From contig JACPRZ010000030.1 of the NCBI GenBank assembly GCA_016193485.1, positions 1 through 64,000 on the forward strand: a DNA stretch of 64,000 nucleotides. Reading direction: 5' to 3'. Under the pieces are notes generated by a model that was not told where the DNA came from, did not search any database, and was given only the letters and a program-made list of their open reading frames with translations. Every line of letters begins with the position of its first letter. The first letter of the stretch is position 1. The stretch is from Bacteroidota bacterium (GTDB lineage Bacteria > Bacteroidota > Bacteroidia > JACPRZ01). The translations under genes were made by a program, and so were the position numbers. Positions 1,929 through 30,244 of this stretch are shown piece by piece.

Positions 1929-2031
1929 ATCAGGATACAGGGAGGAGAAGACGGGAGACAGGGAAATATAAAATTGACAGGTGCTGATGGGCATTGGTAG
2001 GCATTGAATATTGCGGATTTGGGATTGCCAA

Positions 2032-2051
2032 CCTGCCTGCCGGCAGGCAGG
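2032..2051. repeat. 20-bp perfect palindrome CCTGCCTGCCGGCAGGCAGG, within a larger imperfect hairpin
   Basis: Exact palindrome; same 20-mer recurs at 27349, 29732 and 30171. Outer ATTGCGGATT/AATCCGCAAT arms flank it. Confidence 0.9.
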
Positions 2052-27286: not shown

Positions 27287-27494
27287 AATCAATCGTTACT
27301 ACTCAGCATCCCAGGAATTTCATGCCACAAAATCACTAAAACACAAAACCTGCCTGCCGGCAGGCAGGTTTCACTAAATTTTTTTGTGTTTTTTGGTGCT
27401 TTTGTGACTTTGTGGCAGAAATTTTTATGTTTTCGGACTTTGTGGCAGAAATTTTTATGTTTTCGGATACCCACCTGAATAGTTACAATCAATC
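27287..27494. mobile_element. MITE-like element (copy D2), 192 bp, with 8-bp target site duplication
   Basis: Element 27295..27486, ends GTTACTACTCAG / CTGAATAGTTAC; perfect flanking AATCAATC duplication (27287..27294 and 27487..27494). Confidence 0.88.
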
Positions 27495-28283
27495 AAATTT
27501 CAAATGTTTAATTGATCGTCCGCCATCGCGTAATTGCCTGAGTGCATCAATACCGATTTTGATGTGCATTTCAACAAATTTATCCGTTACAATTTTATCC
27601 TGTTCTTCGGTTTTTACTCCTTCGGGAGTCATCGGCTGATCTGAAATAAGCAGAAGCGCGCCCGTAGGGATACGATTTGCAAACCCGGTAGTGAAAATTG
27701 TTGCCGTTTCCATATCAATTCCCATACAGCGTATGTCGCGCAGGTAATTTTTAAATTTATTGTCATGTTCCCAAACCCTGCGGTTGGTAGTGTAAACCGT
27801 GCCTGTCCAGTAGTCCCGCTTGCAGTGCTTAATGGCGGAGGAAACCGTGCGCTGCAAACTAAAAGCAGGCAGGGCGGGTACTTCGGGCGGAAAATAATCG
27901 TTTGAGGTGCCTTCTCCCCGGATTGCCGCTATGGGAAGTATCAGATCGCCTATTTTGCTTTTATCTTTAATTCCACCGCATTTTCCAAGGAACAATACGG
28001 CTTTTGGCATCACTGCGCTCAGCAGATCCATAATAGTGGCCGCATTGGCGCTGCCCATTCCGAAATTTATTATGCTTATGCTTTCGCTTGTGGCATTAGA
28101 CATCGGCTTATCTTTTCCTTTGATTTCAATACCCATCTGGCGCGCGAACTTTTCAACGTAAACGGTAAAATTTGTCAGCAGAATGTATTTCCCGAATTCA
28201 TCAGCGTCAGCGCCCGTATAGCGGGGAAGCCAATTGTCAACTATTTCTTTTTTTGTTTTCATTAGGTTTTCGTTACTATTCAT
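27489..28283 (-). CDS. amn: AMP nucleosidase
   Basis: 264 aa; SIINFGMGSANAATIMDLL, FLGKCGGIKDK, RGEGTSNDYFPPEVPALPAF, GIDMETATIFTTGFAN, LLISDQPMTPEGVKT. Confidence 0.93.
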   Translation of the reverse strand: MNSNENLMKTKKEIVDNWLPRYTGADADEFGKYILLTNFTVYVEKFARQMGIEIKGKDKPMSNATSESISIINFGMGSANAATIMDLLSAVMPKAVLFLGKCGGIKDKSKIGDLILPIAAIRGEGTSNDYFPPEVPALPAFSLQRTVSSAIKHCKRDYWTGTVYTTNRRVWEHDNKFKNYLRDIRCMGIDMETATIFTTGFANRIPTGALLLISDQPMTPEGVKTEEQDKIVTDKFVEMHIKIGIDALRQLRDGGRSIKHLKFD

Positions 28284-28629
28284 GCCCGATTATCCCATAA
28301 TTATCCAACTCAATCAAATCATATACTTTGAACATCTTTTCAATTTGTTCAATATGGTTATTGACTAAGGCGTAAAGAATGTTGTTCTTTATGTTGCCCG
28401 TGGTAATAATCAATAATTTTTTTGGCGAGCGCTGCAGATAAAATGAATTTTCAAAATCAGAATCTTTCGTGATTAAAATCCGATTCTCTTTTTGGACGAT
28501 GGCACGAATAACATTATCATGTGTTCGTTCTTTAGAAGGTAAATCATCGGTATGAATAGCATCGTGACCTTTGGCATTTAGCAGTTTGCACAATTGATAG
28601 GGTAGTTGTGCGTCAACAAAAAACTTCAT
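28276..28629 (-). CDS. DUF5615-like (PIN-like/Mut7-C-like) putative toxin
   Basis: MKFFVDAQLPYQLCKLLNAKGHDAIHTDDLP...ILITKDSDFENSF; overlaps the upstream DUF433-like gene by 4 bp. Confidence 0.85.
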   Translation of the reverse strand: MKFFVDAQLPYQLCKLLNAKGHDAIHTDDLPSKERTHDNVIRAIVQKENRILITKDSDFENSFYLQRSPKKLLIITTGNIKNNILYALVNNHIEQIEKMFKVYDLIELDNYGIIGHE

Positions 28630-28859
28630 GCAAGTATTTTGTGAATGGCTTTAACACTTGTAAGGCGGGAAGCAAATTGCAGGCATGCTTTTATGTCGGC
28701 CCGCTCAAGTGCCGGATAATCCTTTATTATTTCTTCAGGAGTCATTCCGGAAGACAATAAATCCAGTATCATCTCCACCGGATATCGCATATTTCTCACT
28801 ACCGGTTTGCCATGGCAAACTTTCGGGTGCATGGTTATTCTTTTTATTAATCCTTTCAT
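28626..28859 (-). CDS. DUF433-family putative antitoxin
   Basis: 77 aa; RITMHPKVCHGKPVVRNMRYPVEMILDLLSSGMTPEEIIKDYPALERADIKACLQFA. Confidence 0.9.
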   Translation of the reverse strand: MKGLIKRITMHPKVCHGKPVVRNMRYPVEMILDLLSSGMTPEEIIKDYPALERADIKACLQFASRLTSVKAIHKILA

Positions 28860-28999
28860 TTTCTCATATTTTTACAAAGGTATAACATTTTTCCCGGAGC
28901 ACCCGGGGTTTCGTTTTTCGGCTAATTCTTATTTTCCGGTGCTACGAGTAATATTTTATCTCGCCACACGCAATTTCATGATGGATTATTTTGATGTTT

Positions 29000-29024
29000 G
29001 AGACGAGACGTGGTCTCGTCTCTA
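29000..29024. repeat. REP palindrome (GAGACGAGAC-GTG-GTCTCGTCTC) 3' of the RAYT gene
   Basis: Perfect 10-bp arms with 3-nt loop; same arms occur inside the adjacent transposase gene. Confidence 0.85.
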
Positions 29025-29044
29025 CATTCCGGTTGTTTTTCGTG

Positions 29045-29701
29045 TTATTTATTACACCGGGGATTATATTCGTCTGCATCCCAATTTTTTGGATTATGGC
29101 AGCTATATGAACGAATTTGTTGTAGCCGTTCATCGTTACGGATGATCTCATCATAGAATCGTGGTTGCCAATCAAACCATCCGCCATGACCCTTATGTTT
29201 GAATTCTTTTTTACATTTTGATTTCCATCCGCCTATTATTACGGATAATGAACCTTTTGGGGGTGAAATTGCTGCCATTTTTTTGTTTTTGGAAATGTTT
29301 CCTGATATGTTCTTGGGTATGTAGAGACGAGACCTTGTCTCGTCTCTTTTATTTAATTCGTTCTCGTCTCTTTTTTTTATTTCGTTCTCGTCTCTACATA
29401 CCGGCTGTTGTTGGGTTGTTTCAGGCAGCAGACGTTTCATAACCACAATTCCATGAATGTGATTGGGCATTATTTGAAATGCATCAAGGTATGTATCCAT
29501 AAATGACTCCGGTATTTCCAACCAATAGTCCAGCACGATTTTTCCCATTTCATTCAATTTCATTTCTCCATTTACTACATCGCCAAAACAACAAATACGG
29601 TTTCGTGTACATATCGTTACATAATATTTACCACCCCGGGCGTAATCCCAACCTGGCATTCGGGCGGATTGTATGCGGTATTTTTCTTTATATCGTTCCA
29701 T
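29045..29701 (-). CDS. REP-associated tyrosine transposase (RAYT, Y1_Tnp/TnpA_REP)
   Basis: GGKYYVTICTRNR, MPNHIHGIVVM (HUH), FYDEIIRNDERLQQIRSYSCHNPKNW (catalytic Tyr region). Start at internal Met (MERYKEKYR); upstream ORF extension is encoded by a palindrome. Confidence 0.88.
   Translation of the reverse strand: MERYKEKYRIQSARMPGWDYARGGKYYVTICTRNRICCFGDVVNGEMKLNEMGKIVLDYWLEIPESFMDTYLDAFQIMPNHIHGIVVMKRLLPETTQQQPVCRDENEIKKRDENELNKRDETRSRLYIPKNISGNISKNKKMAAISPPKGSLSVIIGGWKSKCKKEFKHKGHGGWFDWQPRFYDEIIRNDERLQQIRSYSCHNPKNWDADEYNPRCNK
29316..29402. repeat. REP-type nested palindrome inserted in frame inside the RAYT ORF
   Basis: 17-bp perfect outer arms GGTATGTAGAGACGAGA/TCTCGTCTCTACATACC, 87 bp = 29 codons (encodes part of RDENEIKKRDENELNKRDETRSRLY). 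Confidence 0.85.
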
Positions 29702-29731
29702 CAGCCGGAACAGTAATAAAAATTTGGCAAA

Positions 29732-29751
29732 CCTGCCTGCCGGCAGGCAGG
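29732..29751. repeat. 20-bp palindrome CCTGCCTGCCGGCAGGCAGG upstream of RAYT
   Basis: Exact match to copies at 2032, 27349 and 30171. Confidence 0.9.
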
Positions 29752-30082
29752 TATACTCCAGCACCGGAAAATAAGAATTAGCCTATGTGCCGAGTCAATT
29801 TTGTTTTGTTGTGCATGGCAGATGCAAGAGGGCAGAAGGCAGAGGGAAAATACGAATGAAAAACATATAACAAGAAATGAATAATGAATAAGGGAAAAGC
29901 AGAGCAGGCGATGGAGTATATTTGACAAATTATCACTATTGTCCGACTAAAAATAAAATCAACACTTTTTCTACTATGAAGAGTAAACAATTTTATAAAA
30001 GTACCCCCTATCATGTTTTTTTGATCCCAGAACAAGGATTAACGATTAGCGATTTTTGATGTATTTTACGGATTAAAATTTC

Positions 30083-30244
30083 GTAACTATTCAGGTGGGT
30101 ATCCGAAAACATAAAAATTTCTGCCACAAAGTCACAAAAGCACCAAAAAACACAAAAAAATTTAGTGAAACCTGCCTGCCGGCAGGCAGGTTTTGTGTTT
30201 TAGTGATTTTGTGGCATGAAATTCCTGGGATGCTGAGTAGTAAC
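30083..30244. mobile_element. MITE-like element (copy D3), 162 bp, inverted relative to D2
   Basis: Reverse complement is identical to D2 except for a 30-bp tandem duplication in D2; no 8-bp duplication visible at its ends. Confidence 0.85.

Follow-up and report, generated by a model that had tools for sequence, protein, structure and literature searches.

The window, by which we mean the 64,000-nt stretch of a Bacteroidota bacterium genome analyzed here (contig JACPRZ010000030.1), encodes a RAYT (REP-associated tyrosine transposase, TnpA_REP) on its reverse strand. Translation likely starts at the ATG at position 29701, giving a protein of 218 aa, rather than at an upstream GTG (239 aa). The initial annotation had called this gene a RAYT, and profile comparisons bore this out. 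The NCBIfam REP_Tyr_transpos model (NF047646) matched 24 of 24 members of an alignment built from DNA references (alignment A2) and matched the window protein with an E value of 3e-10 and 40 bits, where the curated cut-off is 80; the Pfam Y1_Tnp model gave 14 bits, below its 23-bit threshold. When the RAYT profile was compared with the Protein Data Bank (PDB), the sole match was E. coli TnpA_REP (PDB code 4er8; E = 3e-8). In A2, the window protein carries NHIH at residues 80 to 83, W178, and Q179. Y199 is presumed, from its family, to be the catalytic tyrosine; the motif around it reads YSCHNP in the window protein and YICHNP in a second copy on contig C11 (YIxNNP in TnpA_REP subclass 2.4).

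Table 1. Features in and around the RAYT unit (positions in the window)
Feature	Position	Strand	Evidence or remark
RAYT / TnpA_REP CDS, 218 aa	29048..29701; stop codon 29045-29047	(-)	ORF, NCBIfam NF047646, profile match PDB 4er8
HUH motif PNHIHG (H81, H83)	29450..29467	(-)	Invariant columns in the 24-member alignment A2
Y199	29105..29107	(-)	Invariant column in A2
In-frame REP insert (outer palindrome, arms of 17 bp; inner hairpin; right half present three times, period 24 bp)	29316..29402		Repeat search and folding
Outer arms of the insert	29316-29332 / 29386-29402		17 nt, 100% complementary, 53 nt apart
Inner hairpin, GAGACGAGAC-CTT-GTCTCGTCTC	29324-29346		
Right-half repeats	29338-29361, 29362-29385, 29386-29402		24-bp period
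REP core GTAGAGACGAGACCTTGTCTCGTCTC	29320..29346		Core found at 15 further genomic places
Second REP, directly 3' of the RAYT gene	28996..29025		Repeat search and pattern search; some 20 nt downstream of the stop codon
RAYT unit	28920-29783		Exactly TIR to TIR
24-bp terminal inverted repeat (TIR), left end	28920..28943	(+)	100% complementary; C11 homology ends exactly there
24-bp TIR, right end	29760..29783	(-)	Repeat search; C11 homology ends at same points
Palindrome CCTGCCTGCCGGCAGGCAGG, unrelated, upstream of the RAYT start	29729..29752		Repeat search; absent from the C11 copy
Other copies of CCTGCCTGCCGGCAGGCAGG	27346-27371, 30168-30193, 2030-2051		
Perfect 143-bp inverted repeat	27295-27437 / 30102-30244		Brackets the RAYT-holding region
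51-bp matching pieces	27436-27486, 30083-30133		
DUF5615 (PIN-like) and DUF433 gene pair	28276-28859	(-)	Toxin-antitoxin-like; adjoins the RAYT unit

Between H81/H83 and Y199, the open RAYT frame runs through an insert of 87 bp, which occupies residues about 101 to 129 and is translated as RDENEIKKRDENELNKRDETRSRLY. The insert is a palindrome with perfect arms, and because a shorter hairpin sits inside it, the palindrome is nested. Both points had been made in the initial annotation, which described a nested palindrome inside the ORF that is translated between the HUH and Tyr regions, and both hold. Folded alone, the RNA of the insert reached -28.0 kcal/mol (z = -7.5), a value that no shuffle out of 200 equaled, and for the DNA the figure was -15.0 (z = -6.6). 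A pattern search identified the double-foot GTAG...CTAC form of REP in the window (GTAGAGACGAGAC..GTCTCGTCTCTAC). The same palindrome had also been placed just 3' of the gene; a REP does lie there, but as a simple hairpin that lacks the triplicated half. Since a single-sequence structure model of the window RAYT had a pLDDT of 34, we place the insert in a loop on the basis of the alignment and of the model of Quentin et al. (2018, PMC6006769), in the main text of which the variable region is judged to be peripheral and to have little impact on activity.

The 4.0-Mb genome contains the GAGACGAGAC palindrome 16 times. Four of these copies are at the two RAYT loci, in the window and on contig C11, where each gene contains an in-frame REP and has another just 3' of it; none of the remaining 12 falls within an ORF longer than 109 codons, measured from stop to stop. 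The insert is a genuine member of this REP family, and the recurrence of the palindrome across the genome and next to each RAYT copy supports the view that the gene holds its own REP in frame. The C11 RAYT is 91% identical to the window copy, and its insert is one 24-bp unit shorter, with both frames open. Values of dN/dS between the two copies, which rest on small counts, were 0.39 overall, 0.32 outside the linker, and 0.65 within it, consistent with a coding gene whose linker is under laxer constraint.

Unexpectedly, the RAYT lies in a unit bounded by TIRs. The C11 unit (G000:C11:24393-25224) is flanked on either side by the 8-bp direct repeat CTTTTTAT, and the window unit has no flanking direct repeat. 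In a third unit (G000:C45:35769-36523), the same ends enclose a broken Y1 gene of another type (Pfam Y1_Tnp, E = 3e-17), and the flanking repeat agrees at 7 of 8 positions; this unit has only its ends in common with the RAYT unit. One other genome of the class (G025) contains about 19 such ends, some of them in short ORF-free pairs flanked by 7-of-8 repeats. Two ORF-free elements there, L175 and L176, are 398 and 231 bp long, with the same ends and 7-of-8-bp flanking repeats, and several of the ends in this genome are followed by GTTCCGTAGGAAC palindromes. Target duplications are not generally expected of HUH transposases, so a DDE transposase acting in trans could possibly move the TIR-bounded units; a search for a DDE transposase gene for these units did not find one. 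Other repeats also occur nearby. One of the four window copies of CCTGCCTGCCGGCAGGCAGG sits between the RAYT start and the TIR of the unit, and further inverted and matching repeats and a toxin-antitoxin-like gene pair surround or adjoin the unit (Table 1).

A REP within its own transposase gene is not unique to this locus: the main text of Quentin et al. (2018, PMC6006769) already gives "double-foot" REPs lying in frame between HuH and Y as the hallmark of TnpA_REP subclass 2.4. By its NHIH and WQ motifs, its double-foot REP, and the in-frame position of that REP between HUH and Tyr, the window RAYT is probably of the subclass 2.4 type. As that text describes the subclass, the two have in common a Y1 HUH protein with NH[IFV]H (here NHIH) and WQ motifs and a GTAG...CTAC double-foot REP that is found in frame between HuH and Y and also beside the gene. 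They differ in the tyrosine motif (YSCHNP or YICHNP here), in the triplication of the REP half at a 24-bp period, and in the enclosure of the unit within 24-bp TIRs, which Quentin et al. link to other subclasses. The TIRtrons (TIRYTs) in the main text of Di Nocera et al. (2013, PMC3733652) also have a Y1 gene between TIRs unrelated to REPs; however, TIRs there replace REPs, and many carry GGGGWSAS, whereas the window unit carries both TIRs and REPs, its TIR reads GGCTAATTCTTAWTTT..., and an 8-bp direct repeat flanks a related unit. The same text describes REPs inside other genes. Intragenic GTAG/CGTC REPs and Rickettsia palindromic elements (PMC3733652) are likewise palindromic repeats translated in frame in host proteins, but their hosts are unrelated genes, and the host here is the REP's own transposase. 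In E. coli TnpA_REP (4er8), the HUH and Tyr regions align with the RAYT profile, but the aligned blocks (39-71 and 79-124) are only 8 residues apart, compared to about 49 profile positions (94 to 143), and there is no REP linker.

To place the insert in a wider context, we surveyed homologues. Searches at the family and order levels returned this genome alone, and a plasmid search returned two distant RAYT homologues only; at the class level, a RAYT was found in 124 of 392 genomes. The loci fetched from the class-level search yielded 81 distinct genes with both motifs. A perfect hairpin (arms of at least 10, loop of at most 6) was present in the linker of 48 of these 81 homologues, compared to 0.05 expected from dinucleotide shuffles, while outside it 3 of 81 had one upstream of HUH and 0 of 81 downstream. 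The REP sequences differ by clade, and so do their translations (VETLHATSL, VETRFIASL, VETGHALSL, RDAMHCVST, and RDETRSRLY). REP arms were common to the linker and its own flanks in 14 of the 48 loci, where foreign flanks would give 2.0. One homologue, L050, has a 247-aa linker in which REP-derived peptides, about a dozen in all, alternate (VQTRFIASP / ETQLIASLQ). The REP-free homologues (L093, L104, L105, L116, L123, and L131) have short linkers of 48 to 51 aa. The initial annotation had held that REP-free homologues conserving the charged linker would refute its reading; these six have no counterpart of the peptide and so do not refute it. The survey shows that an in-frame REP, as recognized by its hairpin, is common across a large clade of RAYT homologues, and the recurrence of such hairpins in the same linker indirectly supports the self-targeting that the initial annotation had raised.

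The reading that we favor, at a probability of roughly 0.55, is that a RAYT of the subclass 2.4 type inserted its own cognate REP into a tolerant loop, where the REP persists as DNA, a gene-resident putative substrate. The RAYT itself would have placed the REP in the HUH-Tyr loop by acting on nearby single-stranded DNA. We propose that the enzyme stays active because this loop accepts any in-frame length and that the internal REP owes its persistence to its working as DNA: a substrate in permanent linkage with its enzyme's gene, from which REPs at other places could be seeded or re-seeded. A later in-frame tandem duplication of 24 bp (8 codons) would have lengthened the right half of the REP in the window copy, or else the C11 copy would have lost one unit. 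The length change of exactly 24 bp, with both frames open, counts in favor of this account of in-frame expansion and self-insertion.

It is also possible, though rather unlikely, that the internal REP is a neutral passenger: the RAYT would act preferentially near its own gene, and REPs would land in the sole insertion-tolerant part of that gene and stay there, functionless, until lost. Linkers are indeed free in length and sequence, and homologues without REPs exist. Also as tolerated insertions should be, internal REPs use both open frames: the GTAG/GTGG feet fall 39 and 15 times in the two stop-free frames, with no case in the frame that would read TAG. Quentin et al. (2018, PMC6006769) themselves assign the extension little effect on activity. 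However, the density of hairpins in the linkers of the 81 genes (2.9 per kb) is about four times that in the 300-bp intergenic flanks (0.74 to 0.79 per kb), which are more permissive. In addition, perfect palindromes persist where no intact donor copy is found. When a strict internal REP pattern (GTAGRGRCN{6,16}GYCYCTAC) was matched genome-wide in 22 genomes, the internal REP was the sole match in 9 (G103, G138, G068, G368, G246, G337, G202, G211, and G095), a fraction that describes these genomes, which were chosen for having an internal REP, and is no rate. For G103 and G068, the REP was taken to be internal from a genome count of one and a fetched locus with one REP inside the ORF. Four further genomes of the 22 have two strict matches, one of them internal. 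These counts cover one strict pattern in draft genomes and leave decayed copies uncounted. By our estimate, the chance that a single randomly placed REP would hit a linker is roughly 250 in 3.5 million. The idea that internal REPs spill over from REPs abundant elsewhere in the genome was rejected on the basis of the nine genomes without another intact copy.

A less probable alternative, which the initial annotation had raised for the DNA or mRNA level, is that the internal REP autoregulates the gene, as a putative operator-like or mRNA hairpin site through which the RAYT or a nuclease limits RAYT expression or activity. The strong RNA and DNA hairpin, the conservation at the DNA level, and the closeness of two REPs, internal and 3', on one gene would all suit such a role. 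Against it, the position of the REP varies within the linker, the number of hairpins ranges from 0 to about 12 (in L050), and a perfect hairpin is missing from about 40% of homologues.

Several observations bear on whether DNA or peptide is kept in the linker. An identical 28-bp REP (GTAGGGACGTTGCATGCAACGTCCCTAC) is read as VGTLHATSLQ in L098 and as GRDVACNVPT in L120, proteins whose cores are 75% identical. Among L079, L087, and L117, which come from three families, the shared REPs are identical and show no synonymous change, while synonymous divergence of the cores is saturated (pS of 0.75 to 0.87); the P values for zero synonymous change (5e-8 to 9e-6) cannot separate retention from recent re-insertion, and the frozen sites may also reflect recent insertion or replacement rather than selection. 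Between the window and L043 (core pS of 0.71), the REP cores differ in the hairpin loop alone: the arms are unchanged, and both synonymous changes fall in the loop. Within clades, a change in one arm is matched by a compensating change in the other. Close pairs were limited to window/C11 and L054/L062, and these are too similar for a test of constraint. Together with the hairpin survey, the frame usage, and the only-copy genomes, the frame swap and the frozen silent sites show that the linker is maintained or renewed as DNA and not as peptide. A conserved function of the charged peptide, with the palindrome incidental to its codons, is thus very improbable. RDETRSRLY does recur in L043, which is 54% identical to the window RAYT over the aligned protein, but related proteins read one DNA in different frames, different peptides fill the same slot, and silent sites are frozen; the L098/L120 frame swap led us to reject this reading. 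A chance palindrome or assembly artifact, for which we found no support, is hardly credible given the independent C11 copy with its other length and many substitutions and the 0 of 200 shuffles that fold equally well.

Some internal REPs also extend beyond their usual ends. Of 26 strict internal REPs, 7 have an inverted repeat that continues past the GTAG/CTAC feet by 3 bp or more (about 0.4 expected by chance), and in 6 the continuation is 5 bp or more (about 0.03 expected). These six (L061, L081, L098, L114, L052, and L121) are extended by 5 to 13 bp into unique linker sequence, with the longest extensions, 12 to 13 bp, in L061 and L081. Few as they are, the extended arms would fit a fold-back or template-switch origin. 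We did not find only-copy genomes, the frame swap, frozen silent sites, or extended arms in the main text of Quentin et al. (2018) or Di Nocera et al. (2013).

Beyond residence in the loop, we raise tentatively, and with some doubt, a stronger role for the internal REP: that of a selected DNA master copy, which would tie enzyme to substrate through horizontal transfer and re-found REP families that have decayed. If this were true, internal REPs with arms extended into unique flanks would be footprints of fold-back, template-switching insertion. REPs belong to the most common repeats of bacteria, and there is no settled account of their spread and persistence. A RAYT that keeps its target in its own coding frame offers a directly testable system.
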